Assembly: GCF_004799325.1 (NCBI RefSeq)
Contig: NZ_SSMD01000002.1
Location: 62,001 to 126,000 of the forward strand
Reading direction: 5' to 3'
Length of the DNA: 64,000 bases
DNA from: Thalassobius vesicularis
Lineage (GTDB): Bacteria > Pseudomonadota > Alphaproteobacteria > Rhodobacterales > Rhodobacteraceae
The position numbers and the translations under genes were made by a program. This document shows, one piece after another, positions 2,461 through 60,817 of this stretch. How positions within the stretch are numbered: position 1 is the stretch's first letter; each line of letters opens with the position of its first letter. Below the pieces are notes generated by a model, which was not told the origin of the DNA, did not search any database, and worked only from the letters and a program-made list of their open reading frames with translations.

Positions 2461-2522
2461 GGGGCGCTGCCCCTCTGGCCTGCGGCCATTCACCCCGGGA
2501 TATTTGGAAAAAGAAGAAGCCC
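2461..2522 (+). repeat. dispersed intergenic repeat, long form, copy 1
   Basis: This unit has three parts. A GGGGCGCTGCCCC hairpin comes first, then a TGGCC-TGC-GGCCA hairpin, then CACCCCGGGATATTTGG running into an A-rich AAGAAGAAGCC end. The same order recurs at 12338-12401, 23376-23440 and 60755-60817, with different bases but preserved pairing in the middle hairpin. It sits directly behind the UbiH-like gene. Confidence 0.75.
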
Positions 2523-2546
2523 GTCCCGGTGTCTGGGGCGGGCTTT
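2517..2546. terminator. hairpin terminator between two convergent genes
   Basis: The inverted repeat AAGCCCGTCCC / GGGGCGGGCTT surrounds a 7-base loop and is followed by T residues on the plus strand and a run of A (T on minus) on the other side. It lies between the convergent UbiH-like and aminotransferase genes and could serve both. Its left arm overlaps the end of the dispersed repeat. Confidence 0.65.
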
Positions 2547-2553
2547 GTTGATC

Positions 2554-3681
2554 TCAGAGGACTTGGTCGATGACCGTTTTCAGGCGGTTGAGCGTGGCGG
2601 GCACATCGTAAAGTTTGTCGAGCCCGAACAGGCCGAGGCGGAAGGTCATGAAGCCTTCGGGCTCGTCGCAGGCGAGCGGGACGCCGGCGGCGATCTGCAT
2701 GCCGAGGGCCGCGAATTTCTTGCCGTTCTGGATCTCGGGGTCGGTGGTGTAGCTGACGACCACGCCGGGGGCTCCGAAGCCTTCGGCGGCGACCGAGGTC
2801 ACGCCCTTGGCGGCCAGCATGGCGCGGACGCCGTCGCCCAGCTGCCATTGCGCGGCCCGCAGGCGGGAGAAGCCGTAGGCGCGGGTTTCCTGCATGGTGT
2901 CGCGGAAGGCGCGCAGGGCGTCGGTGGGCATGGTGGCGTGGTAGGCGTGGCCGCCGTTTTCATAGGCCTGCATGATCGCGTGCCATTTCTTCAGGTCGAT
3001 GGCGAAGCTGTCGGACTGGGTGTTGGGCAGACGGTCGAGCGCGCGTTGCGACATCATCACCAGACCTGCCGAGGGGGAGGCAGACCAGCCCTTTTGCGGG
3101 GCCGAGATCAGCACGTCGACGCCGGTTTTGGTCATGTCGACCCAGGCGCAGCCCGAGGCGATGCAGTCGAGCACCATCAGGGCGCCGACCTCATGCGCCG
3201 CTGTGGCCAGGGCGGTGATGTAGTCGTCGGGCAGGATCAGACCGGCGCTGGTTTCGACATGGGGGGCGAAGACGACGTCGGGCTTGGCCTCGCGGATGGC
3301 TTGGGTCACTTCCTCGATCGGGGCCGGAGCGAAGGGGGATTGCGCGCCGTTGCCGGTTTGGCGGGCCTTGAAAACGGTGGTCTGGGCGGCGAAATTGCCT
3401 GCCTCGAAGATCTGGCTCCAGCGATAGGAGAACCAGCCGTTGCGCACGATCAGCGCGTGGGCGTCATGGCCGAACTGGCGGGCGACGGCCTCCATCGCGT
3501 AGGAGCCGCCGCCGGGGACGAGGGCGACACCATCGGCGTGGTAGACCTCTTTCAGCATGCCCGATATGTCGCGCATCACCTGCTGGAAGGTGGCGGACAT
3601 GTGGTTCAGCGAGCGGTCGGTGAAGACGACGGAAAATTCCAAAAGGCCGTCGGGATCGACGGTATCGAGCAGTGCAGGCAT
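2554..3681 (-). CDS. class V PLP-dependent aminotransferase (alanine/serine-glyoxylate type)
   Basis: A 375-residue fold-type I aminotransferase. The PLP lysine is in the SAPQKGW motif near residue 190, preceded by the conserved Asp in LMVLDCIASG. The N-terminal VVFTDRSLNHMS and the VPGGGSYAMEA loop match the serine-pyruvate/alanine-glyoxylate group. I start at ATG 3681 because GGGAGAG lies 7 bases upstream; an in-frame TTG at 3735 would add 18 residues but has no clear ribosome site. It is the third gene in a row with two Lrp/AsnC regulators (21 bases downstream of the nearer one), suggesting amino-acid-responsive control. The donor and acceptor are not determinable. Confidence 0.82.
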   Translation of the reverse strand: MPALLDTVDPDGLLEFSVVFTDRSLNHMSATFQQVMRDISGMLKEVYHADGVALVPGGGSYAMEAVARQFGHDAHALIVRNGWFSYRWSQIFEAGNFAAQTTVFKARQTGNGAQSPFAPAPIEEVTQAIREAKPDVVFAPHVETSAGLILPDDYITALATAAHEVGALMVLDCIASGCAWVDMTKTGVDVLISAPQKGWSASPSAGLVMMSQRALDRLPNTQSDSFAIDLKKWHAIMQAYENGGHAYHATMPTDALRAFRDTMQETRAYGFSRLRAAQWQLGDGVRAMLAAKGVTSVAAEGFGAPGVVVSYTTDPEIQNGKKFAALGMQIAAGVPLACDEPEGFMTFRLGLFGLDKLYDVPATLNRLKTVIDQVL

Positions 3682-3755
3682 GTGTTCTCTCCCAAATTTG
3701 GGATAGGGGTAGCGCGGTTTGGCGGGCTTGTCCAAGTCTACCGTCGCATACAGGG

Positions 3756-4211
3756 TCAGAGCGGACCGGGGCGGCGTTCTTCGGAGAGCATGACGTTCGC
3801 CTCGACGTTGCCGACGCCGGGAAGGGCCATGATGCGGCGGCGCAGGACGCGCTCGAAGTCAGAGATGTCGCGGGCGACGATCTTCAGGCGGTAGTCGTAG
3901 ATGCCGAGGATGTGCTCGACGGTCTGGACCTCGGGGATGGCGGTGACGACGCGCTCGAAATCCTCGAGGCTGACGCGGCCCTTGGTGGCCAGTTTGACGC
4001 CCAGAAAGACGGTGACGCCGAAGCCGAGCTTGTCGCGGTCCAGTACAAGGCGGCGACCCTTGATCGCGCCGGAGTCGTGCAGGCGCTTGATGCGGCGCCA
4101 GGTGGCGGGTTGGCTGAGGTTGAGGCGGCGACCAAGGGCCCCGGCGGAGAGGGTGGCGTCTTGTGCAAGGGCGCGCAGGATCTGGTGGTCGATATCGTCG
4201 AGGTCGATCAT
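3756..4211 (-). CDS. Lrp/AsnC-family transcriptional regulator (proximal copy)
   Basis: A 151-residue regulator starting MIDLDDIDHQILRAL. A winged HTH covers about residues 4-50 (LGRRLNLSQPATWRRIKRL). A C-terminal RAM/ACT-like ligand domain follows (about 65-145), including the EHILGIYDYRLKIVARD strand pair and ending in NVMLSEE. Full family length. It is transcribed toward the class V aminotransferase. It is clearly paralogous to the next gene, with the same length and layout, but the HTH differs (AGALGRRLNLS versus TADLAERAGIT). No good ribosome site is visible before the ATG, so translation may depend on the upstream gene. Confidence 0.88.
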   Translation of the reverse strand: MIDLDDIDHQILRALAQDATLSAGALGRRLNLSQPATWRRIKRLHDSGAIKGRRLVLDRDKLGFGVTVFLGVKLATKGRVSLEDFERVVTAIPEVQTVEHILGIYDYRLKIVARDISDFERVLRRRIMALPGVGNVEANVMLSEERRPGPL

Positions 4212-4230
4212 GGGTGTCGGGCCGTGGATT

Positions 4231-4253
4231 GAGTATTTGGATCAGAAAGAAGC
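4231..4253 (+). repeat. dispersed intergenic repeat, short A/T-rich half only
   Basis: The 23-base stretch GAGTATTTGGATCAGAAAG followed by AAGC fills most of the 52-base gap between the two Lrp genes. It matches the A/T-rich end of the long copies and the arms of the 102-bp palindromes near degP. The GC hairpins are absent here. Confidence 0.75.
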
Positions 4254-4263
4254 TGGGAGGCGG

Positions 4264-4719
4264 TCAGACGGGGAGAACTTCGTCTTCCTTGATGCGGGCG
4301 ACGTGCATCAGGGCGTCGAGGTCGGCGATATGCGGCAGGGTCAGGATGCGGCTGCGGTAGATCTGCTGGTAATGCGCCATGTCGCGGGCGATGACAGAGA
4401 GGCGGACGTCGACCTGACCGAGGAAGGTCTGGATTTCCAACACCTCGGGCACCTCGCGGGCGGCGGCGAGGAAATCGTCGAAGGCGCGCGGGTTGGTTTT
4501 GTCGAGGGTGATGCGGAGGGAGACCTCAACCTCGTACCCAAGCGCGCGCCAGTCGATGACGGCCTGTTGGCCCAGAAGGATGCCTTGCGCCTGCATCCGT
4601 TCCAGCCGTCGCCAGCAGGTGGCGGCGGTGATGCCGGCGCGTTCGGCCAGATCCGCGGTCGAGAGGCCGGGATCGGCCTGGAACTGGCGCAGAATGCGCC
4701 GATCGGTGTCATCCAGCAT
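4264..4719 (-). CDS. Lrp/AsnC-family transcriptional regulator (distal copy)
   Basis: A 151-residue Lrp-type protein starting MLDDTDRRILRQFQADPG. Its HTH is in residues 5-50 (LAERAGITAATCWRRLERM). The ligand-binding RAM domain contains IQTFLGQVDVRLSVIARD, the usual Gly- and Asp-containing effector loop. It is divergent from ilvC (133 bases between start codons), so it may regulate ilvC and itself, a common arrangement for Lrp regulators of branched-chain synthesis. It is first of a three-gene minus-strand run ending in the class V aminotransferase. Confidence 0.88.
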   Translation of the reverse strand: MLDDTDRRILRQFQADPGLSTADLAERAGITAATCWRRLERMQAQGILLGQQAVIDWRALGYEVEVSLRITLDKTNPRAFDDFLAAAREVPEVLEIQTFLGQVDVRLSVIARDMAHYQQIYRSRILTLPHIADLDALMHVARIKEDEVLPV

Positions 4720-4836
4720 GATTTTTCCGACTATTGGCTATTTTGAGAATGATTTCTTACACGAATTGCGAAGATCGTCAAAGTTTGAAACCCAAATGCG
4801 CCGGTTTCCGCAGATAGTGCGCCCAGAACACAATAA

Positions 4837-5874
<1,038 letters not shown>

Positions 5875-5900
5875 GGCCGGGCCGGATGGCCTGATCTTTG

Positions 5901-5930
5901 AACCCCCGGCCTGCACGCCGGGGGTTTTTC
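5901..5930 (+). terminator. rho-independent terminator of ilvC
   Basis: A 10-bp perfect stem AACCCCCGGC / GCCGGGGGTT with a 6-base loop is followed by a T run. It starts 27 bases after the ilvC stop and lies just before the ribosome site of the DMT gene. Confidence 0.9.
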
Positions 5931-5946
5931 CTTTCAGGAGGGGCGG

Positions 5947-6864
5947 ATGGAGCCGCAGATCACCAAATCCAGCTGGCTGATGGTCGGCATTCTGGGCTTC
6001 GTCTGGGGGTCCACCTTCATGGGGATCGAGATCGCCCTTGGCGGTGGCATCCCGCCGTTCTGGCTGGCGACGGGGCGGTTGGCGATTGCGGCGGCCGTGC
6101 TGGCGGTGGTCTGGGGGCGGCAGGGCTGGCGGCTGGCGCTGGACCCCGATCAGCGGCCGACCTGGGCGCAGATCGTGTGGACCGGGGCGGTCAGCTCGGG
6201 CATTCCGTTTTTGCTGCTGAACTGGGGGCAGACGCATGTGACCTCGGGGTTTGCGGGGACGGCGATGGCGGCAGTGCCGATCTTTGTGCTGCCGCTGGCG
6301 CATGTCATGGTCGCCGGAGAGCGGCTGAATGCGCGTAAGATCATCGGCGTGGGCATGGGCGTGGTGGGCGTCTGGCTGCTGGTCGGTCAGGGCGCGCTGA
6401 CCGGATCGGGTGCTGCGTTGGAAATCTGGGGCCAGCTGGCCTGTATCGCGGTGGCGCTGTGCTATGCGGTCAACTCGATCACCATCCGCCGGTTGCCGCC
6501 GGTCGATCCGATCGGGCTGACGACGCTGATGATGGCCTCGGGTGCGGTGATTACCCTGCCGTTTTCCGTGGTGTTCGAGGGGGTGCCGCCGGTGCCCTCG
6601 GCCAACGCTTTGTGGGCGCTGCTGGGGTTGGGCGTCGTATCAACGGCGGCGATGAACCTGCTGCGGGTGCTGGTGATCCGCTCGGCCGGGCCGACCTTTC
6701 TGACGCTGGTGAATTACCAGGTGCCGGTGTGGTCGGTGGTGCTGGGCGCGTGGCTGCTGGCGGAACCCCTGCCCCCCAGCCTGATCTGGGCGCTGGCGTT
6801 GATCCTGTCGGGCGTCGCGCTGGGACAGTTCGGCGCGCTGAAGCGGCTGTTTGTCAGCCGCTGA
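5947..6864 (+). CDS. EamA/DMT-family membrane transporter
   Basis: This 305-residue inner-membrane protein has about ten hydrophobic helices arranged as two EamA halves. The first starts SWLMVGILGFVWGSTFMGIE and the second near residue 165 (LACIAVALCYAVNS). The VWGSTF phrase and the final PxLIWALALILSGV helix are DMT hallmarks. Members export amino acids or metabolites; the substrate is unknown. CAGGAGGGG lies 6 bases before the ATG. It converges on folP with an 11-base overlap of the coding ends. It is one of four EamA-type genes in this window. Confidence 0.85.
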   Translation: MEPQITKSSWLMVGILGFVWGSTFMGIEIALGGGIPPFWLATGRLAIAAAVLAVVWGRQGWRLALDPDQRPTWAQIVWTGAVSSGIPFLLLNWGQTHVTSGFAGTAMAAVPIFVLPLAHVMVAGERLNARKIIGVGMGVVGVWLLVGQGALTGSGAALEIWGQLACIAVALCYAVNSITIRRLPPVDPIGLTTLMMASGAVITLPFSVVFEGVPPVPSANALWALLGLGVVSTAAMNLLRVLVIRSAGPTFLTLVNYQVPVWSVVLGAWLLAEPLPPSLIWALALILSGVALGQFGALKRLFVSR

Positions 6865-7867: not shown

Positions 7868-7900
7868 GACATCCTGCGCGGCGGGCCGAAACGGGTGCGG

Positions 7901-8818: not shown

Positions 8819-8914
8819 GCTTTCCTTCCGTCCACCGCTACGCCGCCACCCTACCCGCTAGGCGGGCGGGATGACAGACAGGTTCCGCCCAAATGGCGGA
8901 CAAAACCGGCATAC

Positions 8915-9669: not shown

Positions 9670-9701
9670 CGATTCATAAATAGAAAGTCCTTACGAAACT
9701 G

Positions 9702-12337: not shown

Positions 12338-12401
12338 GGCTTTCTTCTTTTTACAAATATCCCGGGGGAGGCCGCCGCAGGCGGTCGGGGGCAGCGCCCC
12401 C
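12338..12401 (-). repeat. dispersed intergenic repeat, long form, copy 2
   Basis: Read on the minus strand the order is GGGGGCGCTGCCCCC, then the hairpin CCGCC-TGC-GGCGG, then CCCCCGGGATATTTG and an A-rich AAAAGAAGAAAGCC end. It begins 10 bases after the glyS stop in the direction of glyS transcription. The middle stem differs from copy 1, yet pairing is kept. Confidence 0.75.
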
Positions 12402-12410
12402 TGCCCCGTT

Positions 12411-14636
12411 TCAGCCCTCGATCCGGTTCAGATCGGCGACCGACAGACAGATCGTGCGAATGCGCGACAGCAGGTTCAGGCGGTTGCGGCGGACGATCTC
12501 GTTGTCCGAGTTCACCTGCACCCCCTCAAAGAACGCATCGATCGGCGCCCGCAAAGAGGCCATCGCCCGCATCGCGCCCTCGAAATCCTCGCCCCCCATC
12601 GCCGGGGCAATCTGCGCCTCGGCCGCGTCCAGTGCTGCGAACAGCGCCTTTTCGACCACGGTTTCCGCGAATTTCACGTCCGCGCCATAGGAATACTCAA
12701 CCCCGTCCTTGGCCTCGGCCTGGGTCAGGATGTTGTTGGCCCGCTTGAAGCCTTGCAACAGGTTCTCGCCATCGTCCGAGGACAGGAACTCGCCCAGGGC
12801 CTGCGCGCGTTTCACCAGCAGGGTCAGGTCGTCATTGCCCGGCATCGACAGGCAGGCGTCGATCACGTCGTGACGCAGCCCCTGATCGCGCAGGTAGACC
12901 TTCAGCCGGTCATGGAAAAAGGCCAGCAGATCGGCGCTGATATCCGGCACGGGGCCGGTCACGGCCTGTACGGTTTCGCGGGTGGCCGATTGCGCGCTTT
13001 GCAGCACGGTTTCCAACGCCGCACCGAACACACCGTGATCGGCGATCTCGTCCAGCATGGCGTTCAGCGCGTCCAGGCTGTCGCCCTCGGCATCCGACTG
13101 GTTGATGTGGTGCTTCAGCAGCTGGCTGTCGATGAAGCGGTCCAGGTTCACCCGGATATCGCCCGACAGGATGATGCGGATCACCCCCAGCGCCGCACGG
13201 CGCAGCGCGAACGGGTCTTTCGACCCCGTCGGTTTTTCGTCAATCGCCCAGAAACCCGTCAGCGTGTCCAGCTTGTCAGCCAAAGCGACGATCGAGGACA
13301 CCGCCTCGCTTGGCACGTCATCCGACGGACCCAGCGGCGCATAGTGTTGCTGGCAGGCGTTTGCCACGGCCTGCGGCAGGCCCGCGGCCTCGGCATAGTA
13401 GCGGCCCATCAGGCCCTGCAGCTCGGGGAATTCATACACCATTTCCGAGCTCAAGTCGGCCTTGGCCACTTGTGCGGCCTGCTGCGCCAGACCCGCCTCG
13501 ACCCCCAGCACCGGCGCGATTTCGCGGGCCAGCGCGGCGATACGGTCGATCCGGGCGGCCTGGGTGCCCAGCTTGTTGTGGAAGGTCACGTTGGACAGGC
13601 GATCCGTCCATTCGCTCATGCCCTTCTTGGCGACGCGCAGGTCGTTCTCCCAGAAGAATTTCGCATCCGACAGACGCGCCGACAGCACCTTTTGGTTGCC
13701 CGCCAGAATGGTCTTGCCGTGGTCGGTGGTTTCGCGGTTCGCCACGGTGATGAAGCGTTCGATGCGGCCCGTCTTGGGGTTCTTCACCGAGAAAAACTTC
13801 TGGTGCTCTTTCATCGAGGTTTGCAGCACCTCGGGCGGCAGGCCCAGGAATTCCTCGCCGATCTGGCCCATCAGCACGACCGGCCATTCGACCAGACCCG
13901 ACACCTCGGCCAGCAGGCCGCGATCCTCGACAACCTCCAGCCCGGCGGCAAAGGCCATGTTGGTGGCGTCGTGCCAGATCGCCTCGGCGCGGTCGGTGGC
14001 CGACAGGATGACGTGGTCGCGCTTCAGCTTGGCGGTGTAATCGTCAAAGCCGTTCACGCTGAACCGGCCCGAGCCCATGAAACGGTGGCCCTGCGTGGTG
14101 TTGCCCGACACGATGCCGTCCACGTCCATCGGCACGACCTCGGCCCCGGCCTCGGTGGTCAGGATGCACAGGATCGAGTGCAGCGGACGCACCCAGCGCA
14201 AGCTACCAGCGCCCCAGCGCATGGATTTCGGCCAGGGGAAGTTGCGGATGGTCGCCTCCAGCACCTCGGCCACGATCTCGGCGGCGGGGCGGCCCGGCTT
14301 CTCGACCACGGCAAAGAACACGCGGCCCTTCTTGTCGTCCCGTTCAACCAGCTGGTCGCGGGTCAGACCAGCGCCGCGCAGGAAGCCCTCGATCGCCTGT
14401 TCGGGCGCATCGACGCGCGGACCCTTGCGTTCCTCGCGCAGGGTCGGGCTGCGGTCCAGCAGGCCCTCGACCGTCAGCGTCAGACGGCGCGGCGTCGAAA
14501 ACGCGGCGGCCGAGGCATAGGTCAGACCGGCCTCGACCAGGCCATCGGTGACGCGGGCGCGCAGATCCTCGGCGGCCTTGGCCTGCATCCGGGCGGGGAT
14601 TTCCTCGGAAAAGAGTTCGATCAGCAAATCGGGCAT
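12411..14636 (-). CDS. glyS: glycyl-tRNA synthetase, beta subunit
   Basis: Tetrameric alpha2beta2 GlyRS beta chain, 741 residues. It begins MPDLLIELFSEEIPARM, the family hallmark, and carries FSTPRRLTLTV, the ENLLQGFKRANNIL region in the anticodon-binding C-terminus, and ALRRAALGVIRIIL near residue 560. I start at ATG 14636 (AAAGG upstream). The stop of the small membrane protein gene lies one base before this ATG (TGACATG), so the three genes glyQ, membrane protein, glyS form one translationally coupled operon. Confidence 0.95.
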   Translation of the reverse strand: MPDLLIELFSEEIPARMQAKAAEDLRARVTDGLVEAGLTYASAAAFSTPRRLTLTVEGLLDRSPTLREERKGPRVDAPEQAIEGFLRGAGLTRDQLVERDDKKGRVFFAVVEKPGRPAAEIVAEVLEATIRNFPWPKSMRWGAGSLRWVRPLHSILCILTTEAGAEVVPMDVDGIVSGNTTQGHRFMGSGRFSVNGFDDYTAKLKRDHVILSATDRAEAIWHDATNMAFAAGLEVVEDRGLLAEVSGLVEWPVVLMGQIGEEFLGLPPEVLQTSMKEHQKFFSVKNPKTGRIERFITVANRETTDHGKTILAGNQKVLSARLSDAKFFWENDLRVAKKGMSEWTDRLSNVTFHNKLGTQAARIDRIAALAREIAPVLGVEAGLAQQAAQVAKADLSSEMVYEFPELQGLMGRYYAEAAGLPQAVANACQQHYAPLGPSDDVPSEAVSSIVALADKLDTLTGFWAIDEKPTGSKDPFALRRAALGVIRIILSGDIRVNLDRFIDSQLLKHHINQSDAEGDSLDALNAMLDEIADHGVFGAALETVLQSAQSATRETVQAVTGPVPDISADLLAFFHDRLKVYLRDQGLRHDVIDACLSMPGNDDLTLLVKRAQALGEFLSSDDGENLLQGFKRANNILTQAEAKDGVEYSYGADVKFAETVVEKALFAALDAAEAQIAPAMGGEDFEGAMRAMASLRAPIDAFFEGVQVNSDNEIVRRNRLNLLSRIRTICLSVADLNRIEG

Positions 14637-14637
14637 G

Positions 14638-15165
14638 TCAGTAGCCTTTCGGCGGAGTTGGGCAATCTGCGGGGACGGGTTCGCCGTTGAACACGACCTC
14701 GCCGCAATGGTTGATCTGGTTCCAGACAAAGCCGCGCCCGTCGTCCATCACGGCGACAATGCGGTCGATGCCATAGTGAAAATTCGCCTGCCCCAGAAAG
14801 GCCAGGGCGGTGCCGTTTTCCAGCGCGTGGCCCAGTTCCTTGGCGTCGAAACAGCCGAACCAGCCGGGCGCGACCAGCGGCTCGGCCTTGGCGTAGGGCT
14901 TGTACGTCTCGGTCAGCATGGCCTGGCTATGGCCGGTGGTGAAACAGGCACGATACCGGATCGGAGAGCTGTCGGAATCGATCGCCTGGAAATTGTCATA
15001 GACGATGCTTTCCGGCACCCCCGAGGACAGCGACGTGATCATCACGTCGTCGGTCCCGTTGGCCGATACCTCGTCATAATAGGCGTAAACCTGCAGATAA
15101 TACATCGCCACACCGGCGACCAAAGCCGTAATCACGATCAACCCCGCCAGCAGTTTCCCGGTCAT
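14638..15165 (-). CDS. membrane-anchored protein between glyQ and glyS (DUF6446-like)
   Basis: This 175-residue protein has a single N-terminal transmembrane helix ([21 protein letters not shown], residues 4-24) and a periplasmic domain with cysteines in [21 protein letters not shown] and ADCPTPP, possibly two disulfides. It starts inside the end of glyQ (ATGA overlap, stop of glyQ 15162) and ends one base before glyS. I believe it matches a Rhodobacterales family annotated as DUF6446, but this is from memory. Its link to tRNA charging is unknown. Confidence 0.8.
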
Positions 15166-21470: not shown

Positions 21471-21505
21471 AAAAAAACTCCCGTTTCGGCCAAGCGAAAG
21501 GGAGC
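21471..21505 (-). terminator. attenuator terminator between SAM-II aptamer and metZ
   Basis: On the minus strand GCTCCCTTTCG pairs with CGAAACGGGAG (one bulged C) around a CTTGGC loop, and TTTTTTT follows. It lies 11 bases after the aptamer and 36 bases before the metZ start, as expected for an expression platform that stops transcription. Confidence 0.8.
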
Positions 21506-21515
21506 TTTCGTCTGA

Positions 21516-21571
21516 CCTCTTTAGCGGCATGTTTAACGTGGCCCGCAATCCGGTAAACAAATCGCCACGGG
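21516..21571 (-). ncRNA. SAM-II riboswitch aptamer controlling metZ
   Basis: The minus-strand RNA contains CCCGTGGCGATTTG, an internal loop with ATTGCGGG, then CCACGTTAAACA and the 3' GCTAAAGAGG. P1 is CGUGGC pairing with GCCACG. The 3' GCUAAAG segment is the conserved pseudoknot strand of SAM-II, and the GAUUUG..UUGC..GCUAAA skeleton follows the known metX/metA aptamers of alphaproteobacteria. It should shut off metZ when S-adenosylmethionine is abundant. Boundaries are by eye. Confidence 0.9.
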
Positions 21572-21691
21572 CGCCCAAATACGCCCCCGCCCGCAACGCG
21601 TCAATCGTTACGTTCCCTTTACCATGTTTTCACACCCGCTTTGCACGCTCAGGGCAGATTGCGCCCACAGACACAGCAGAGGGTCAGGGGA

Positions 21692-23375: not shown

Positions 23376-23440
23376 GGCTTCTTTCTGAACCAAATACTCC
23401 GGGGGTGAATGGCCGCAGGCCAGAGGGGGCAGCGCCCCCT
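23376..23440 (-). repeat. dispersed intergenic repeat, long form, copy 3
   Basis: Read on the minus strand: AGGGGGCGCTGCCCCC, the hairpin TGGCC-TGC-GGCCA, then CACCCCCGGAGTATTTGG and TTCAGAAAGAAGCC. Unlike copies 1 and 2 it is oriented with its A/T end toward the preceding gene (GST stop 3 bases away), so orientation relative to genes is not fixed. Confidence 0.8.
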
Positions 23441-28577: not shown

Positions 28578-29582
28578 ATGCCGCTGTTCACCCTGGCCAC
28601 ACTCACCCCCGCAGCACTGCTGGTTCTGGGCGTCGCCCTGGGCGGCGGATGGAGCTGGGCCGGGGCCGCCTCCATGACGCTGGTCTGCGCCACGCTGGAC
28701 CGCCTTGTGCGCCTGCCGCGCCGCCAGCCCGCCGATACCGAGTTTCCCAGCGGCGATATCCTGTCGGTCACGCTGGCGTTGCTGCACCTGCCGCTGCTGG
28801 GGCTGGCCGTCTGGGCGATCTCAGGCGGGGCGGAGCACAGCCTGACCGACCGCGCCGGACTGCTGATCGGCTTTGCGCTGTTCTTCGGCCAGATCGGCCA
28901 CCCCAACGCGCACGAGCTGATCCACCGTCCCGCGCGCCTGCATCGCGCATTGGGCACGATGGTCTACGCAACGCTGCTGTTCGGCCACCATGTCTCGGCG
29001 CATCGGCTGGTGCACCACACCCATGTCGGCACCGAGCGCGACCCCAACTCGGCCCCCAAGGGCATGGGGTTCTGGCGCTTCGCCGCCCGCGCCTGGATCG
29101 GGTCCTTCAAAGCCGGATGGCGCGCGGAACGCGATCTGAGCGACCGTTCAGGTCGGAGGGCGCATCGGTATTTTACCTATGTATTCTGGAGTGTTGCAGG
29201 CACATCCTCAAGTTACGCCTTGGCTGGACCTGCGGGAATTTTCAGCCTTCTGATCCTCGCCTCCTATGTCCATCTGCAAATCCTTCTGGCGGATTACGTC
29301 CAGCATTACGGGTTGCGTCGCGCGGTCGGAACCACCGGCAAACCCGAACCCGTCCGCGCCCGCCATTCGTGGAACAGCCCGCATCCGTGGTCCTCGGCCA
29401 TGATGCTGAACGCCCCGCGCCATTCGGATCACCACCAGCATCCGATGCGGCCTTATCCGACCCTGCGGTTGGAGGGCGACATGCCCGTGCTGCCCTACTC
29501 CCTGCCGGTGATGGCGGTGATCGCCCTGTGGCCGCCGTTGTGGCGACGGCTGATGGATGCGCGCGTGGCGGTGGTGGAATGA
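28578..29582 (+). CDS. AlkB-type integral-membrane di-iron oxygenase (alkane 1-monooxygenase/desaturase family)
   Basis: This 334-residue inner-membrane protein carries the His boxes of the alkane hydroxylase/fatty-acid desaturase superfamily: HELIHR near residue 113, HHVSAHRLVHHTHVG near 135 and NAPRHSDHHQHP near 277, plus several long hydrophobic helices. The HELIHR and NxxRHSDHH boxes are closer to AlkB than to acyl-lipid desaturases. The substrate may be an alkane or a fatty acyl chain. I start at ATG 28578. Codons around 29150-29260 are less GC-rich than the rest. The stop merges with a short repeat copy. Confidence 0.85.
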   Translation: MPLFTLATLTPAALLVLGVALGGGWSWAGAASMTLVCATLDRLVRLPRRQPADTEFPSGDILSVTLALLHLPLLGLAVWAISGGAEHSLTDRAGLLIGFALFFGQIGHPNAHELIHRPARLHRALGTMVYATLLFGHHVSAHRLVHHTHVGTERDPNSAPKGMGFWRFAARAWIGSFKAGWRAERDLSDRSGRRAHRYFTYVFWSVAGTSSSYALAGPAGIFSLLILASYVHLQILLADYVQHYGLRRAVGTTGKPEPVRARHSWNSPHPWSSAMMLNAPRHSDHHQHPMRPYPTLRLEGDMPVLPYSLPVMAVIALWPPLWRRLMDARVAVVE

Positions 29583-29604
29583 GTATTTGGATCAGAAAGA
29601 AACT
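29581..29604 (+). repeat. dispersed intergenic repeat, short A/T-rich half only
   Basis: GAGTATTTGGATCAGAAAGA and AAC follow directly on, and share bases with, the TGA stop of the AlkB-type gene. It separates that gene from the convergent xseA stop at 29603. The match to the other copies ends at AAAGAA. Confidence 0.7.
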
Positions 29605-35507: not shown

Positions 35508-35609
35508 GAGTATTTAGATCAGAAAGAAGCCAGAAAGCTGTCCCTTCAACACCCCGCGCGCGGGCGGAGAAGGACGCCAACTATGGGCTTCTTTCTGATG
35601 AAAATACTC
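35508..35609. repeat. 102-bp palindromic repeat downstream of degP (element A)
   Basis: The arms GAGTATTTAGATCAGAAAG (plus AAGCC) and GGCTTCTTTCTGATGAAAAT (plus ACTC) are inverted, differing at two of 24 positions. They enclose a GC-rich core with GCGCGCGGGCGGAGAAGGAC. The same length and core recur at 37329-37430. It lies between the lipoprotein gene and the degP terminator. Confidence 0.85.
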
Positions 35610-35702: not shown

Positions 35703-37160
35703 TCAGTCGGCCACGGACAGCGCGACAAAGCGCGGCTCGCCCTGGCGGCGGATCAGCAGCAGCAGCGACTTGCGCCCCGCGTCCTTGGCCTCGTCCACGC
35801 GGGCTTGAAGATCCGCGACGGTTTCCAGCTTTTGCTGGCCAGCCTCCGTGATCAGGTCACCCGCGCGCAGGCCCTTTTCATAGGCCTCCGAGGTTTCGAC
35901 CACGTCCATCACGACCAGGCCCGTTGCCGTGTTGGCCAGTTGCAGCTCTTTGCGCAGTTGGTCGGTCAACACGTTCAGGGTCAGGCCCAGCATCTCGGAC
36001 GGCTCGGTCGCTTCGGGCTTGGCGGCTGCGGCGGGCACGGCTTCGGCCTCTTCGCGGCGGCCCAGCGTGACCTTCAGCGTCTGGGTCTTGCCGTCGCGCA
36101 GCACCATCACCCGAACGGCCTTGCCGACATCGGTATTGCCGACCTGGCGCACCAGACCCCGCGTATCCGCGACATCGACGCCATCAAAGGACAGGATCAC
36201 GTCGCCCTGCAGGATGCCGGCCTCTTTGGCGGGGCCTTCGGGGACGTCCGTCACCAGCACGCCAGCGACCTTTTCCAGACCCATCGCCTCGGCGACGTCC
36301 TGGGTCACGTCCTGGATCCGCACGCCCAGCCAGCCACGGCGGGTTTCGCCGTATTCCTTCAGCTGCGCCACGACCTTGCTGACCACGTTCGACGCCATCG
36401 AGAACCCGATCCCGATCGAGCCGCCATTGGGCGACAGGATCGCGGTGTTCACGCCGATCACCTCTCCGTCCATGTTGAACAGCGGCCCGCCCGAGTTGCC
36501 CCGGTTGATCGCCGCATCGGTCTGGATGAAGTCGTCATAGCTGCCTGACAGCGCCCGGTTACGCGCCGACACGATGCCCGCACTGACCGAGAACCCCTGC
36601 CCCAGCGGGTTGCCCATTGCCATCACCCAATCGCCCACACGCATCTTGTCGCTGTCACCAAAGGTGACGTAAGGCAGCGGCTTGTCCGCCTCGACCTTCA
36701 GCAGGGCGATGTCGGTGTTCGGGTCGGTGCCGACCAGCGTGGCCTTCAGGGTCTCACCGCCGAAGAACTCGATCTCGATCTCGTCGGCGCTTTCGATGAC
36801 GTGGTTGTTGGTGACGATGAACCCGTCCTCGGAAATCACGAAGCCCGACCCCAGCGCCGAGCTGCGCCGCGGACGGTCGCCCTGCCCCTGGTTACGGTTC
36901 TGGAAATCCTTGAAGAATTCCTCGAACGGGCTGCCCTCTGGCACGATCGGATTCGGCCCTGCCTGCGAGGCGACCACCGTCGAGGTCGTGATATTCACCA
37001 CCGAGGGGCTGATCTTTTCAGCCAGATCGGCCAGGCTGTCGGGTCGCGCCGAGGCGCTCATGGCCTGCGCCAACACCATCGCCAGCGCCACGACACCCAG
37101 CCAAAGCGCACGCAGCGCGCCCTTCTGGTTCGGAACAGAAACTGCCAGACTGCTCACTCC
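35703..37160 (-). CDS. degP: Do/DegP-family periplasmic serine protease
   Basis: A 485-residue protein that degrades and refolds misfolded envelope proteins. It has a signal peptide (about 1-38, ALRALWLGVVALAMVLAQAM). The trypsin domain carries a complete triad: His in FIVTNNHVIESAD, Asp in DPNTDIALLKV and Ser in RGNSGGPLFN. Two PDZ domains follow (from RRGWLGVRIQDVTQ and from EMLGLTLNVLTD). I start at ATG 37160 (AAAGGAGAG just upstream); a GTG two codons later has better spacing. It is flanked on both sides by 102-bp palindromic repeats, and its terminator is at 35656. Confidence 0.9.
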   Translation of the reverse strand, partial: GVSSLAVSVPNQKGALRALWLGVVALAMVLAQAMSASARPDSLADLAEKISPSVVNITTSTVVASQAGPNPIVPEGSPFEEFFKDFQNRNQGQGDRPRRSSALGSGFVISEDGFIVTNNHVIESADEIEIEFFGGETLKATLVGTDPNTDIALLKVEADKPLPYVTFGDSDKMRVGDWVMAMGNPLGQGFSVSAGIVSARNRALSGSYDDFIQTDAAINRGNSGGPLFNMDGEVIGVNTAILSPNGGSIGIGFSMASNVVSKVVAQLKEYGETRRGWLGVRIQDVTQDVAEAMGLEKVAGVLVTDVPEGPAKEAGILQGDVILSFDGVDVADTRGLVRQVGNTDVGKAVRVMVLRDGKTQTLKVTLGRREEAEAVPAAAAKPEATEPSEMLGLTLNVLTDQLRKELQLANTATGLVVMDVVETSEAYEKGLRAGDLITEAGQQKLETVADLQARVDEAKDAGRKSLLLLIRRQGEPRFVALSVAD

Positions 37161-37328
37161 CATCTCTCCTTTGATCCTGCTAAACATGCCGGCCTCTGGC
37201 GCCGGTTTGGCCTTACCTTCCCAGCACCCGCTCCGGTTTTCAACTCAATCCACATCGCGGCACCTCAAGTGGCCGTGAACCGCCGGTGATCCTGTCACAA
37301 CCCGCGCCCGGACAATCTGTTCCGCCGC

Positions 37329-37430
37329 GAGTATTTTCATCAGAAAGAAGCCAGGGTGCCGTCCTTTTGCCATCTCGCGCGCGGGCGGAGAAGGACGCCG
37401 CATTCTGGCTTCTTTCTGATCCAAATACTC
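37329..37430. repeat. 102-bp palindromic repeat upstream of degP (element B)
   Basis: The arms GAGTATTTTCATCAGAAAG (plus AAGCC) and GGCTTCTTTCTGATCCAAAT (plus ACTC) enclose a core sharing GCGCGCGGGCGGAGAAGGAC with element A. Both copies are 102 bp and align without gaps, about 80% identical by my count. It occupies much of the 292-base gap between DUF2065 and degP, so it may lie inside the degP leader. Confidence 0.85.
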
Positions 37431-54262: not shown

Positions 54263-54278
54263 ACTCTCTCGCCGCGCC

Positions 54279-54788: not shown

Positions 54789-54791
54789 CGC

Positions 54792-55737: not shown

Positions 55738-55830
55738 CGTCCTTTTGCCGTATCCTTTTGGCAGCCCGAGGGCAATCGTCAGCCCCCCATTCGGGCCGGG
55801 GGCGGTCGCCCGCCCCCGCACCGGCTCGTC

Positions 55831-56454
55831 TTATTGCTTGGGCTGCATCGGGCAATCGCCGTTGCCACCCATGCCTTTGCCCATGCCCATGCCGCGGCCG
55901 TCATGGTCGCCATGGCGCATCATGCGGCCATCGTGATCGCCGTCACGCATCATCCGGCCGTTGTGGTCGCCCTTGCCGGGGCCAAAGCCGCGCTGCTCCA
56001 TGCGGTCCTGCATCTGGGCGAATTCCTCGGTCGAGATCGCCCCGTCGCCGTCCTTGTCCAGGCGCTGCAGCATCATGCCCTTGTTCTTGGGTTGCATTTC
56101 CTCGTAGCTCAGCTTGCCGTCGTCATTGGCGTCGCGGTCCACGATCATGTGCTTGGCGCGGTTGGTCATGCGCTCGGCCATCTTGGCCTGCATCTGGGCC
56201 GCCATTTCCTCGGCGCTCAGGCTGCCATCCTTGTCGGCGTCAGCGGCGTCGAACTTGGCCTTGAAGTGGGCCGCGATCTCGGCCTCGGTGATCTTGCCGT
56301 CCTTGTCGGCGTCCACCTCTTCAAAGGTGAACATCTGGCCGCGCGGGCCGTCGAACCCGCCCATGCGGTGCTCTTTGCCCCAGGCAAATGCGGCGCCTGC
56401 GCCAGCGGTCAGGGTCAGGGCGGCGACAGTCGAGATCAGAATTGCGCGTTTCAT
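55831..56454 (-). CDS. secreted EF-hand calcium-binding protein
   Basis: A 207-residue exported protein (signal MKRAILISTVAALTLTAGAG...AFA). Four EF-hand loops are visible: DADKDGKITEAE (about 48-59), DADKDGSLSAEE, DRDANDDGKLSYEE and DKDGDGAISTEE (about 135-146). The tail is Gly/Met/His/Asp-rich with repeated GDHDGR units (about 165-195), which may bind metal. It lies 94 bases upstream of the sigma gene on the same strand. It resembles the calmodulin-like/EfhP type of envelope proteins. Confidence 0.88.
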   Translation of the reverse strand: MKRAILISTVAALTLTAGAGAAFAWGKEHRMGGFDGPRGQMFTFEEVDADKDGKITEAEIAAHFKAKFDAADADKDGSLSAEEMAAQMQAKMAERMTNRAKHMIVDRDANDDGKLSYEEMQPKNKGMMLQRLDKDGDGAISTEEFAQMQDRMEQRGFGPGKGDHNGRMMRDGDHDGRMMRHGDHDGRGMGMGKGMGGNGDCPMQPKQ

Positions 56455-56695
56455 GTGCGGTTCTCCGTTTTCTGAGTTGTGTCGAAACCGGCCTCTCAGC
56501 TCGTTTTCTGATCACTAAACGCGGCCCGTTGCCCATTCCGTCGCCCTGAAACGTAAAAAATATTCCAACTCACGCATCCGTGACATGGGGGTGAACGGGG
56601 TTTTGCGACATCGGGACGCAAGGACACTGCGCACCCTTTATATTCCATCTCTGATGCACCAATTTGCACGGCTTGAGGGAAACGCGAGGGAACCC

Positions 56696-57082: not shown

Positions 57083-57102
57083 CCCCCCGCGAGGGAGGAT
57101 AC

Positions 57103-57810
57103 ATGACCATAGACAAGACCGCGATCCGCGACGCCGCCACGGTGATCGTGCTGCGCGACAGACTGAATGACCCACATGTTTTGATGGGCCAACGCGGTGC
57201 CCAAGCCGCGTTCATGCCCAACAAGTTCGTGTTTCCGGGGGGTGCCGTGGACAAGGCCGACGCCGATGTTCCGCTGGCCACCCAGATGCCGCATGTCTGC
57301 CGTGACCGCCTGCTCGAAGACACCGAGCGTGACCTGACGCACGCCCTGTCCGTCGCCGCGATCCGCGAGCTGTGGGAAGAAACCGGCCTGATCCTGGGTC
57401 AGCGCGGTGCCTGGGACGGCACTCCGCCCGAGGATTGGGTCAGCTTCGCCGCCACCGGCCACGTGCCTTCGGCGCATCCGCTGCAATTCGTGTTCCGCGC
57501 CATCACCCCTCCGGGTCGGCCGCGCCGGTTCGATGCGCGTTTCTTCATGATCGACGCCGACGAAATCGCCAGCGATCTGGACGATTTCGACGCCGCCTGT
57601 GACGAGCTTTCGCACCTGCAATGGATCCCGCTGCCCAAGGTGCGCGAGTTCGACCTGCCCTTCATCACCGAGGTCGTCCTGGCCGAAGTCGCCAAGCGCG
57701 CCCACGACCTGACGCCGCCGGATTCGGTGCCGTTCTTCAAGAACAACGAAGAGGCAAACCTGTTCCTGCGCCTTAAAGGAGTAGGACCAATGACAGGACA
57801 GAAGCGCTGA
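57103..57810 (+). CDS. NUDIX hydrolase (NUDT19/RP2-like)
   Basis: A 235-residue hydrolase. The Nudix box is split by an insert: FVFPGGAVDKAD near residue 46 and AAIRELWEETGLIL near residue 88, giving the G..E and REUxEE parts. The long insert between the halves and the later FDARFFMIDADE are typical of the NUDT19 (CoA/acyl-CoA hydrolase) group. The start is ATG 57103 (GGGAGG). The last 38 bases overlap the convergent DMT gene. Confidence 0.85.
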   Translation: MTIDKTAIRDAATVIVLRDRLNDPHVLMGQRGAQAAFMPNKFVFPGGAVDKADADVPLATQMPHVCRDRLLEDTERDLTHALSVAAIRELWEETGLILGQRGAWDGTPPEDWVSFAATGHVPSAHPLQFVFRAITPPGRPRRFDARFFMIDADEIASDLDDFDAACDELSHLQWIPLPKVREFDLPFITEVVLAEVAKRAHDLTPPDSVPFFKNNEEANLFLRLKGVGPMTGQKR

Positions 57811-58669
57811 TAAGCGCGATCCCGGCGCCTTCGCGCCGGGTGATCTTCTCTTTGAAGACCAGCACCGAGGCGGCGATCGAAAAGATCACCTCGACCTGCC
57901 CCACAGCAAAGACATAGGCCGCGTTCATCAGCGTAAAGGCGGTGAACCAGCCAAGGCTGCCACCCAGACTGGCCAGCCCCATCCACACGGATTTTCGCCA
58001 CGACCCCAAGACCTTGGCCAATTGACCCGGCTCGCGCCAGCCGATCCACAGGCTCAGCCCCAGCGCCTGAGAGGTCGTCACCACCGCCAAGGACGCCAGC
58101 GCCCGCATCAACGGGTCGTCGCTGGCCACCTCCAGCGTGGCACCACGATAGCCCACCGCCGAGACCGCGAAAAACGCCCCCGACAGCAGCCCCAGCCCCG
58201 CGCTGCGGTTCCAGAACCTGCGCCAGCCGGCGGCGCCCCCGGGCACGTCCGACAGCACCAGAACGCCGACCAGCCCCAAAAGGATCGCCACCATCCCACC
58301 CAATGACACCGTGTCGCCCAGCACGACAAAGCCCACCAGCGCGGTCTGCACGACCTCGGTTTTCTTGAAGGTGATCCCCACCGCGAAATTGCGCCGCGCG
58401 AACAGCGCCACCACGCACCATGTCGCCAGCACCTGTGCCAGCGCGCCGCTCCATGCGTAGGTCAGGAACATCGGCCCGACCGCAGGCACCCCCTGCCCGC
58501 GCCAGCTGACGTAGCCCACCGCAATCGTCACCACGAACGGGGCCGAGAACAGGAACCGCGCAAGCGTCGCGCCCCCCGCCGACAGCGTCCCCATCGCCAG
58601 CATCTTTTGCAGCATGAAGCGCAGAGTCTGGAACGCCGCCGCCGCGATGGAAATCAGAACCCAGGCCAT
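57773..58669 (-). CDS. EamA/DMT-family transporter
   Basis: A 298-residue inner-membrane protein with about ten helices (AWVLISIAAAAFQTLRFMLQ at the start; PMFLTYAWSGALAQVLATWC; VEVIFSIAASVLVFKEKITR at the end). The VLGDTVSLGGMVAILLGLVG helix and the KEKITRREGAGIALI tail follow the DMT layout. The substrate is unknown. The 3' end overlaps the NUDIX gene. Confidence 0.82.
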   Translation of the reverse strand: MAWVLISIAAAAFQTLRFMLQKMLAMGTLSAGGATLARFLFSAPFVVTIAVGYVSWRGQGVPAVGPMFLTYAWSGALAQVLATWCVVALFARRNFAVGITFKKTEVVQTALVGFVVLGDTVSLGGMVAILLGLVGVLVLSDVPGGAAGWRRFWNRSAGLGLLSGAFFAVSAVGYRGATLEVASDDPLMRALASLAVVTTSQALGLSLWIGWREPGQLAKVLGSWRKSVWMGLASLGGSLGWFTAFTLMNAAYVFAVGQVEVIFSIAASVLVFKEKITRREGAGIALISASVLSLVLLL

Positions 58670-58682
58670 GACCTACCCTTTA

Positions 58683-58704
58683 CCGGAGCACTTGCATGCT
58701 CCGG
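58683..58704. other. hairpin between DMT and Cys-rich lipoprotein genes
   Basis: CCGGAGCA and TGCTCCGG are perfect 8-bp arms with a 6-base loop. It lies 26 bases past the stop of the minus-strand lipoprotein gene and 14 bases before the DMT start. It has no strong T tail, so it is a weak terminator at best. Confidence 0.45.
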
Positions 58705-58729
58705 CTTTGGCATGTCCGGGCGGGCCGCG

Positions 58730-59053
58730 TCAATCGACGCAGATCTCGACCTTCTTGCCCTTTTCGTCCAGGTAGCTGTAGCAGCCGAACATCGGGGACA
58801 CCTTGTTGCAGGTCCGCGTGTCCGCCAGACAGGTGTCCGTACAATCGGTAGCCTTGCGGCAGGATTTGCCGGCGTCCGGGTTCTCGGTAAAGCAGATATA
58901 TTCCGGCGAGAAGATGCCCCCCGGCGCATAGGTGCCGCCAGCGGCCTCGCACGCGGCTTTCTTTGCGGGGATCGATTTGGGGCCCGGCGGGTCGTCTTGC
59001 GGCAGGCAGCCTGCCAGCGCCAACACCCCCAGAACCAGCATGAATTTCTTCAT
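58730..59053 (-). CDS. small cysteine-rich lipoprotein
   Basis: A 107-residue lipoprotein with signal MKKFMLVLGVLALAGCLPQ (lipobox LAGC). The mature part has nine more Cys: in KAACEA, YICFTE, KSCRKATDCTDTCLAD, TRTCNK, FGCYSY and EICVD. They suggest several disulfides. The Asp/Gly/Lys-rich N-terminus (DDPPGPKSIPAKKA) is a tether. Function unknown; it is exported to the envelope. Confidence 0.75.
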   Translation of the reverse strand: MKKFMLVLGVLALAGCLPQDDPPGPKSIPAKKAACEAAGGTYAPGGIFSPEYICFTENPDAGKSCRKATDCTDTCLADTRTCNKVSPMFGCYSYLDEKGKKVEICVD

Positions 59054-59119
59054 TTTGCCCCTCCATTGGCTGTTCTGTCCGGGCCCAGCTTACGCCTGCC
59101 GGGCCCAGAGTAAACAGTT

Positions 59120-60166
59120 TCAGAACGGCATGGGGTGCGACTTGTGCGCCTCGTCCAGCTCCTTCAGGACCTCGTCGGACAGGGTGACATCGGCCGCTTT
59201 CAGCGCGTGGTCCAGCTGTTCAAGCGTGGTCGCCCCGAAGATGACCGAGGTCATGAACGGCCGCCCCGCCGCCCAGGCCAGCGCCATATGCACCGGGTCC
59301 AGCCCGTGGCGGGCGGCGATCGCCAGATAGGCGTCGACGGCGGCGAACACCCGGTCGGTCTTGCGCCCGCCCAACCCCGGCACCAGCGACATGCGCGAGC
59401 CTTCGGGGACGTGGTTGTGCTGGTATTTCCCGGTCAGCAGGCCCACCGCCAGCGGCGAATAGGCCAGCAGGCCGATGTCTTCATTCGCGGCCACCTCGGC
59501 CAGATCGGTGTCGAACAGACGGCACATCAGCGAGTATTCGTTCTGCACCGAGGCAACGCGAGGCCCGCCGACACGCTCGGCCACGTTCGCCCACATCGTG
59601 CAGCCCCAGGCGCTTTCGTTCGACAGGCCGAAATGGCGGATATTGCCCTTTTCGACCTGACGCTGCAGCGCGTCCAGCGCGTCCTCCATATGGGCGATGG
59701 TGGTAGCGCGGTCCTGCCCCGACGCGTCATAGCCCCAGTTCTTGCGGAACATGTAGCTGCCGCGATTGGGCCAGTGGAATTGATAGAGGTCGATATAGTC
59801 GGTCTGCAGCCGCTTCAGCGACCCTTCGATCGCGCCCGGAATGGTGGCCGAGGTGATCGGCGCGCCATCGCGCACAGCCGCCAGCCCCTCGCCCGAATGC
59901 TTGGTGGCCAGAATGAAATCGCCCCGCCGCGCGCGGTTGGCAGCGTTCCAGGTGCCGATGATTTCCTCGGTCCGGCCCACGGTTTCCTTGGACACCGGGT
60001 TCACCGGATACATCTCGGCGGTGTCGATGAAGTTGATCCCCCGCGCCAGCGCCATGTCGATCTGCGCATGGCCCACCGCTTCGGTGGTCTGGGTGCCAAA
60101 GGTCATGGTGCCAAGGCAAAGGTCGGTCACATCCAGGCCCGTGCGGCCCAGCGGTCTGGTCTTCAT
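59120..60166 (-). CDS. aldo/keto reductase (Tas-like)
   Basis: A 348-residue NADPH-dependent oxidoreductase starting MKTRPLGRTGLDVTDLCLGT. The catalytic residues are visible: Asp in NFIDTAEMYPV, Tyr in the same segment (AEMYP), Lys in FILATKHSGEG and His in LYQFHWPNRG. The C-terminal VIFGATTLEQLDHAL binds NADPH. The MTFGTQTTEAVGHAQIDMAL opening resembles E. coli Tas. The substrate is undetermined. Confidence 0.9.
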   Translation of the reverse strand: MKTRPLGRTGLDVTDLCLGTMTFGTQTTEAVGHAQIDMALARGINFIDTAEMYPVNPVSKETVGRTEEIIGTWNAANRARRGDFILATKHSGEGLAAVRDGAPITSATIPGAIEGSLKRLQTDYIDLYQFHWPNRGSYMFRKNWGYDASGQDRATTIAHMEDALDALQRQVEKGNIRHFGLSNESAWGCTMWANVAERVGGPRVASVQNEYSLMCRLFDTDLAEVAANEDIGLLAYSPLAVGLLTGKYQHNHVPEGSRMSLVPGLGGRKTDRVFAAVDAYLAIAARHGLDPVHMALAWAAGRPFMTSVIFGATTLEQLDHALKAADVTLSDEVLKELDEAHKSHPMPF

Positions 60167-60202
60167 TGTGTTGCTCCCGTCGGTTCACTGCCCGGGAACA
60201 TA

Positions 60203-60231
60203 CCCCGGCTGATCGAAAAGACCAGCCGGGG
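60203..60231 (-). terminator. possible terminator hairpin past the DsrE-like gene
   Basis: CCCCGGCTGGTC pairs with GATCAGCCGGGG on the minus strand (12 bp, one G-T pair) around a TTTTC loop. It lies 9 bases after the stop at 60240. The T tail is missing on the minus strand, though TTTTT lies on the plus side. Confidence 0.5.
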
Positions 60232-60239
60232 CCGGGTTT

Positions 60240-60671
60240 TTACGGTTTGACGTAGGCGTAGCCGTCCTCTTGCAGTTCGACCAGGCGCACCACGCCCGAG
60301 GGCACGACCTGCGCCTCTTCCATCACCGACAGCTCCTTGCCGGCTTTCTTGCTCATCTTGGCCAACGTGTTGCCGCAGGCCGAGAATTGCAGGTGATCCA
60401 GCCCCAGATGCATGGTTTTCACGCGCTCCTCGACCGGGCTTTGGCCCGGCATCAGCATGATCAGGCCGGGGCCGTAGGCGACCAGCTCGACCGTGACGTC
60501 ATCACCCTTGGATTTGTAGTAGGAGACGACGTTCTCGATATTGTTCAGTGCGATGTTCATCACCTGTGCGTCACCGCTGTTCACGTGAACGGCGATCTTG
60601 TGCATCACGCCTTCGGCCCAGGCAAAAACCGGGGCACCGGCCAGAACGGCCGCCAAAATGAGTTTTTTCAT
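60240..60671 (-). CDS. periplasmic DsrE/DsrF-like protein
   Basis: A 143-residue exported protein with signal MKKLILAAVLAGAPVFAWAE. The DsrE-fold core is IAVHVNSGDAQVMNIALNNI, VTVELVAYGPGLIMLMPGQS, LQFSACGNTLAKMSKKAGKE, with one Cys in SACGNT where DsrE-family proteins have their active Cys. It ends in VPSGVVRLVELQEDGYAYVKP. A role in sulfur transfer or redox in the periplasm is only inferred by fold. Confidence 0.82.
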   Translation of the reverse strand: MKKLILAAVLAGAPVFAWAEGVMHKIAVHVNSGDAQVMNIALNNIENVVSYYKSKGDDVTVELVAYGPGLIMLMPGQSPVEERVKTMHLGLDHLQFSACGNTLAKMSKKAGKELSVMEEAQVVPSGVVRLVELQEDGYAYVKP

Positions 60672-60754
60672 GCGGATTCCTCCCTATTCGCATGGGGTTA
60701 CGATACGCGGATTCCGGAATATGTCACCGGGATTTTTTGCGGACTGGCCGCGCA

Positions 60755-60817
60755 GGGGGCGCTGCCCCCACCGGCGCCTTTGGCGCCGCCCCCGGAGTAT
60801 TTCGGTCAGAAAGAAGC
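60755..60817 (+). repeat. dispersed intergenic repeat, long form, copy 4
   Basis: The order is GGGGGCGCTGCCCCC, then the hairpin GGCGCC-TTT-GGCGCC, then GCCCCCGGAGTATTTCGG and TCAGAAAGAAGC. It lies in the 219-base gap between two divergently oriented genes, so it cannot act as a terminator for either. Confidence 0.8.

Follow-up and report, generated by a model that had tools for sequence, protein, structure and literature searches.

The genome of the alphaproteobacterium Thalassobius vesicularis carries well over a hundred near-identical short intergenic tags, which lie mostly at gene ends and are often headed by hairpins; their A/T-rich half is a near-invariant two-part code, the right half of which depends on the lineage. 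The 64,000-nucleotide stretch analysed here (the window; G000:C2:62001-126000, where G000 denotes the source genome) comes from a draft genome of 3.79 Mb. The core of the repeat unit is a bipartite cassette of 21-22 nt, made up of a left half, a 3-nt gap (N3) and a right half (the 'code'). It occurs as family A, GAGTATTT-N3-TCAGAAAGAA(G/A), with TCAGAAAGAAG as the right half in the long copies of the window, and as family B, GGATATTT-N3-AAAAGAAGAA; the window holds eight family A and two family B cores, i.e. two sequence families with one architecture. The original prediction, made from the window, expected many copies genome-wide, and these were found. Family A has 98 matches in G000 when up to three mismatches are allowed at the 18 fixed positions (70, 24, 1 and 3 copies with zero, one, two and three mismatches, respectively), the single mismatch being G->A at the last base in 22/24 copies, and family B has 84 when up to two are allowed (83 with none, 0 with one and 1 with two). 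Reversed-pattern controls for both families gave 0 matches across the G000 genome, and the repeats are thus not a product of chance.

Conservation centres on the two halves of the cassette. The G000 stretches that we fetched were taken for their family A copies, and core counts in them are hence not independent of the search; with one mismatch allowed they yield 96 A cores, of which that at C6:33407 is doubtful. Core positions 1-8 are identical in all 96, and each of the ten positions after N3 is the same in at least 93. The gap itself is free, with 28 of the 64 possible triplets seen (GGA and TCA being the commonest), and the flanks hold little information except for the first 3' base (C in 89/96) and one T-rich 5' base. 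The same stretches contain 20 facing-core pairs spanning 48 to 178 nt. Among 11 aligned palindromes of ~102 bp, pairwise differences amount to 0/1980 in the cores, 211/330 in N3 and 1197/3062 in the interior (64% for N3 and 39% for the interior). Since these palindromes had been found by their cores, searches starting from the interior and from the expected partner were also run. The palindrome interior, used as a genome query, gave eight matches; seven (up to two mismatches) lie within palindromes with both cores intact, and the eighth (three mismatches) adjoins the A member of an A/B facing pair (C4:54089). Hairpin modules found without using the core lie directly before GAGTATTT in 4/4 cases. 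Beside 56 unpaired cores, the partner search found 12 partner-like sequences scoring at least 12/18: seven are family B cores that are intact, four are variants of A (in spacing or by one base) and one, beside C6:33407, is unclear. The best partner scores at the other 44 cores range from 7 to 10, and those of control windows from 7 to 12, with 1/56 reaching 12. Decayed copies are thus nearly absent despite diverged surroundings and an unconstrained gap within the cassette, from which we conclude that the cassette is maintained in G000. Neutral drift with random decay is ruled out for this genome by the mismatch classes of A and B together with the partner search. A role as a strand-biased chromosome guide was also rejected, as family A is found 53 times on the forward and 45 times on the reverse strand, though this is a crude test with contig order unknown. 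Seven facing pairs in G000 are mixed, an A core being paired with a B core:

C1:253609/253655, mixed A/B facing pair
C2:314802/314829, mixed A/B facing pair
C4:54089/54142, mixed A/B facing pair
C4:194568/194608, mixed A/B facing pair
C5:243255/243300, mixed A/B facing pair
C7:75413/75456, mixed A/B facing pair
C7:78922/78978, mixed A/B facing pair

Within the window, all eight loci of the original prediction are present:

2461-2518, plus strand, long copy of family B with hairpin 1 GGGG/CCCC, hairpin 2 TGGCC/GGCCA and then CCCC; its core is GGATATTT-GGA-AAAAGAAGAA at 2498-2518 (plus)
4231-4252, plus strand, short copy of family A, core only, between two minus-strand Lrp/AsnC-type regulator genes
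12338-12401, minus strand, long copy of family B with core at 12342-12362, run lengths 5/5/5 and hairpin 2 CCGCC/GGCGG
23376-23440, minus strand, long copy of family A with core GAGTATTT-GGT-TCAGAAAGAAG at 23378-23399 and run lengths 5/5/5
29581-29602, plus strand, short copy of family A, core only, between convergent genes
35508-35609, unstranded, 102-bp palindrome with facing family A cores at 35508-35529 (plus) and 35588-35609 (minus)
37329-37430, unstranded, 102-bp palindrome with facing family A cores at 37329-37350 (plus) and 37409-37430 (minus)
60755-60817, plus strand, long copy of family A with core GAGTATTT-CGG-TCAGAAAGAAG at 60795-60816 and hairpin 2 GGCGCC/GGCGCC

The four long copies had been described as one sequence. 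Their architecture is indeed common, but the GGAGTATTT ... CAGAAAGAAGC core is present only in 23376-23440 and 60755-60817, whereas the other two (given as 2461-2522 and 12338-12401) carry the second core type, GGATATTT-N3-AAAAGAAGAA. The short copies at 4231 and 29581 consist, as proposed, of the A/T half alone, and each of the two 102-bp copies is a palindrome formed by a pair of facing cores; they lie on either side of the gene for a DegP-like protease with Trypsin_2 and PDZ domains (35703-37187, minus). As for the remaining neighbours, the long copy at 2461 starts 2 nt past the stop codon of the open reading frame (ORF) 1256-2458, that at 12338 is directly downstream of the glycyl-tRNA synthetase beta gene (12411-14729, minus), and that at 23376 (minus) lies antisense behind a glutathione S-transferase (GST) gene on the plus strand. 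The short copy at 4231 is antisense to both of its flanking genes, and that at 29581 is flanked by a fatty-acid desaturase gene (plus) and the gene for the exonuclease VII large subunit (minus).

The hairpins sit 5' of the core, and their arms vary in concert. Of 140 long copies from eight genomes, 137 allowed us to measure the G-run, the first C-run and the second C-run, which is placed just before the core, and all three are equal in length in 122/137. The G-run equals the second C-run in 122 copies, whereas 10,000 within-genome shuffles gave 55 on average and never more than 76; this test is inflated by kinship of the copies. The match persists within several linker types and at lengths 4, 5 and 6, and at three orthologous sites (L096, L184; L201) all three runs change together between species; the separate linker types and co-changing sites argue against descent alone as its cause. 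Hairpin 2 was assessed on 70 linkers of long copies from the eight genomes. The best stems comprise 436 pairs with 10 mismatches; 67/70 linkers form stems of at least 4 pairs (shuffled mean 22.9, maximum 34), and the mean stem score is 5.6 versus 2.8 (maximum 3.0) in shuffled linkers. That hairpin 2 changes bases while keeping its pairing, as originally noted, holds for 69 stems of at least 3 bp, which have 35 different 5' arms and are 97.7% paired, compared with 73.5% (maximum 83.2%) when 3' arms are swapped between copies; a control on hand-picked stems (99.5% pairing) was set aside as biased. Four of the 10 mismatches are C/A and none is G/T, which hints that the other strand is the RNA, but these are too few to use. 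The 40 nt upstream of the core fold better than mononucleotide shuffles in long copies (mean z -1.7 and -2.0), with mean z of -1.2 in short single copies, -0.5 in short paired copies and -0.2 in the control, and folding of the downstream 40 nt is barely above shuffles (z -0.2 to -0.4). The two window palindromes stand out in folding energy (z -6.7 and -9.9). A second small hairpin head, CCTCCGGCGG, occurs directly before many short cores (20/22 in G156, 7/9 in G110, 13/78 in G000 and 4/45 in G153). This head is sometimes preceded by an A/T-rich palindrome such as CGGAAAATTTGAAATTTTCCG.

Gene neighbours were taken from a rough home-made, ORF-based gene model. Among 305 placements with confident neighbours in five genomes, 139 are convergent, 24 divergent and 142 tandem, and solo tandem copies are sense with the upstream gene in 83 cases and antisense in 44 (p = 0.0007). 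In G000, 23/75 loci are convergent compared with 23/162 gaps without an A core (p = 0.004). The original prediction had described copies in every context and in both orientations. Antisense copies are indeed common in tandem contexts, but placement is not indifferent, given the shortage of divergent relative to convergent sites and of antisense relative to sense copies. As the five-genome and G000 analyses differ in masking and thresholds, with different divergent fractions, and as two window loci were re-called as tandem, we state with moderate confidence that copies appear to lie preferentially at the 3' ends of genes and, weakly, in sense. First-pass ORF calls were overlapped by 26/96 cores, which we put down to overlong ORFs after masking, although copies inside genes are not strictly excluded.

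Comparison with related genomes, for which orthology counts use only the stretches fetched around copies (~9% of the genome for G000), reveals both shared sites and change in place. Seven congeners show, around the window, empty sites, cores of another code and core-only copies replacing hairpin-headed ones; the site at 29581, for example, is occupied by long copies in two congeners and, in G152, by a pair of cores. In the congener G153, 27/60 cores anchor on both sides in the G000 stretches and 18/60 have a G000 core within a matching interval of up to 460 bp. Half of these (9/18) show another code or family, in some cases through a single base difference, and 9/18 have the same code, three of them also the same N3. 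In a second genus, anchoring on the fetched G110 stretches succeeded for only 4/57 G156 cores, three with a core there, two of the same code and one with a one-base difference. An adjacency comparison of two genera, made to find a neighbouring gene that could encode a reading factor, gave shared neighbours that look by eye like housekeeping and transport genes. T. taeanensis shares the G000 cassette, and 12/48 cores could be anchored between the two; at C1:145343 the two share hairpin and linker, yet G000 has a B core and the T. taeanensis counterpart an A core. All four copies listed for G155 have an exact sequence match, down to N3, in the list of five from G150.

A pattern free of the right half, GAGTATTT-N10-GAAG, was run on 149 genomes of the family of the source genome and matched in 97, with at least 10 copies in 51; its reversed control gave at most 2 matches per genome. 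Tallies of codes cover the listed copies, and most of the 51 copy-rich genomes had none listed. A single code accounts for 26/26 listed copies in G134 (29 in all), 49/50 in G110 (125 in all) and 24/26 in G142 (88 in all), and in G010 for 21/26, with a second code in 4. Right halves thus vary from lineage to lineage, and some but not all of the genomes with copies listed are uniform. Among 240 genomes drawn from the class, the 237 that belong to other families gave 0 to 3 matches each, with no code repeated within one genome among the matches listed; the repeat is restricted to one bacterial family among those sampled. Eight viral contigs (L262-L269) match a longer pattern (CCCCGG and core), some with hairpin-headed copies and host-like codes; these are possibly prophage or host-flank DNA.

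The lineage-dependent codes and the in-place change of code together indicate that the maintaining agent changes over time. The simplest common cause of both maintenance and code change is a factor that reads the cassette, cassette copying or conversion being the main rival. We therefore favour, while giving it slightly less than an even chance, a reading in which the repeats are directional recognition elements, mostly at gene 3' ends, read by a putative family-specific factor, most likely at the 3' ends of transcripts. The unit would consist of an optional 5' hairpin module followed by the two-part cassette, i.e. a left half (GAGTATTT or GGATATTT), a gap of 3 nt in which sequence is not strictly constrained and a lineage-specific right half ending GAA(G). 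The putative trans-acting factor would read the cassette across the gap, probably with one factor per code in genomes with several codes, and its reading would keep the copies uniform. Placement at gene ends, the bias towards sense and the 5' position of the hairpins favour action at transcript 3' ends. Such action, proposed with less confidence, might be 3'-end formation, processing, protection or the stopping of a runaway polymerase; with equal reserve, the G-run could switch between the first C-run and the second, immediately 5' of GGAGUAUUU. Between convergent genes, a facing pair would serve the two genes alike. A more elaborate version, which is possible but distinctly less probable, is a dialect system of one family, where ~18 bases are read across a free 3-nt gap and specificity drifts or is replaced between lineages. 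Sites would then be recoded in place, left half included, with positions and hairpins kept, and the hairpin head may be a triplex or three-stranded switch that matches a single G-run with two C-runs.

Several observations weigh against the reading that we favour. No factor was found, Y1_Tnp being the sole protein family sought, and the sites of known regulators are usually more degenerate. The GAGTATTT form has no match in 52/149 genomes of the family. Among listed copies, only 17/26 share one code in G044, no code dominates among the 11 of G092, and G128, G153 and G156 carry several codes with one-base variants; codes can also recur across genera, as with GCAAGATGAAG in both G041 and G110. 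The single long copies of the window fold no better than shuffles (z -1.4 to 0.1). With regard to placement, roughly one in three solo tandem copies is antisense, and G000 shows no depletion at divergent gaps (15/75 versus 36/162). In addition, 16/49 long copies with a sense downstream gene lie within 20 nt of its called start, a position that a pure 3'-end element would avoid. The loci at 4231 and 23376, called divergent in the G000 analysis, have tandem Pfam-matched neighbours, the latter having the GST gene on one side and, on the other, an ORF whose methyltransferase match is below threshold.

The main rival holds that the repeats are non-autonomous mobile or gene-converted elements, akin to miniature inverted-repeat transposable elements (MITEs) or bacterial interspersed mosaic elements (BIMEs), whose cassettes some enzyme copies or rewrites. 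Uniformity would then stem from ongoing copying and conversion, and gene ends would be where insertions are tolerated. Presence and absence between congeners, ~102-bp palindromes with a common interior, mosaic modules, whole-cassette switches with the hairpin kept and a placement as expected of harmless inserts are all in its favour. However, decayed copies are nearly absent even though palindrome interiors and N3 diverge to the extent described above, the transposase of repetitive extragenic palindromic (REP) elements is absent from G000, no target duplication is evident at the few empty sites viewed, where flanks have diverged, and it is difficult to see how ~22 nt could be converted between copies whose flanks are dissimilar. 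Of the MITE traits, terminal inverted repeats are shown by the 20 facing pairs in G000 and not by single copies. N3 as a 3-bp target duplication was rejected, as it is equal in 0/20 pairs as direct repeats and in 0/20 in core orientation. RIME and other alphaproteobacterial mosaic repeats or MITEs are characterized by mosaic modules, ~100-bp palindromes and presence or absence between relatives. The present repeat has all of these in common with them and differs in its fixed bipartite code, in-place code change and equal G/C/C runs. On balance, we regard mobility or conversion as a possible but rather unlikely explanation.

The closest known pattern is that of the DNA uptake sequence (DUS) dialects. 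As described in PMC3630211, DUS of the Neisseriaceae combine strong within-species conservation with several dialects per family around a common core, two dialects can occur in one genome, inverted pairs are linked to terminators, and copy number in four named genomes is 1,543 to 3,770. Copy number aside, the present repeat displays the set of traits so reported, and by analogy it could be a self-DNA tag, with an uptake factor preferring the home code and with biased uptake and recombination keeping copies perfect. A code that is uniform within a genome and different between lineages is found in G000, G110 and G134, though not in G044, G092 and G128. Whereas DUS are very abundant and lie within genes too, copy number here is not very high, with ~180 matches of two codes (98 and 84) in 3.79 Mb against the thousands given in that text, and the cassette is longer than DUS, with ~18 fixed positions across a free 3-nt gap. 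It also has hairpin modules on one side and a gene-end orientation, both of which a tag would not need. We consider a DUS-like function improbable.

Somewhat less probable still are ordinary bidirectional intrinsic terminators that are similar by descent. The GC hairpins followed by TATTT, the location at gene ends and the convergent enrichment would fit such terminators, and by eye the copies at 2461 and 12338 have a terminator-like stem alongside. Yet the core-only copies at 4231 and 29581 keep the full cassette without a hairpin, and terminators require no genome-wide code and, past the T-rich stretch, no fixed sequence of ~10 nt. The earlier view that the copies are not simple terminators is in this respect supported.

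REP elements, BIMEs and REPINs are dispersed and extragenic, occur singly or in inverted pairs and form genome-specific families, as do the short intergenic repeats described here. A REP element is a short imperfect palindrome behind a tetranucleotide, and no such palindrome was seen by inspection in the core-only copies at 4231 and 29581, where the core shows no internal hairpin. Movement by a RAYT (Y1) transposase, as the REP-type repeat of the original prediction would require, is very improbable indeed, because Y1_Tnp (PF01797) is found in 15/149 family genomes, in only 3/51 of those with at least 10 elements (G044, G055 and G141; absent from 48/51) and not in G000, and decayed copies are nearly absent; membership of the REP/RAYT group is thus refuted for G000, as far as PF01797 detects such a transposase. 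The interpretation first offered from the window is, taken as a whole, partly supported.

A search of the open-licence literature found no description of the repeat family among the papers listed, and a search of Rfam (gathering score, or E up to 1) gave no match at the repeat elements of the window. The latter search also placed a SAM_alpha riboswitch (RF00521, 62 bits) at 21500-21578 on the minus strand. At 56067-56313, three imperfect copies of a 67-nt repeat lie close together and perhaps represent a repeated protein motif.

If the repeats are indeed recognition elements read by a factor that acts at transcript 3' ends, transcript ends may gather at GAGUAUUU/N3 in sense copies. Given the many gene ends that are occupied, the elements would bear on how transcripts end in these bacteria; a published R. 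sphaeroides study reports no motif upstream of the 3' ends that are enriched in a PNPase mutant (PMC7866481). Should a factor hold so many dispersed sites to one code while related lineages have switched to others at shared sites, the repeats would be a natural experiment in the co-evolution of recognition code and target sites within a sizeable group of marine and photosynthetic bacteria.

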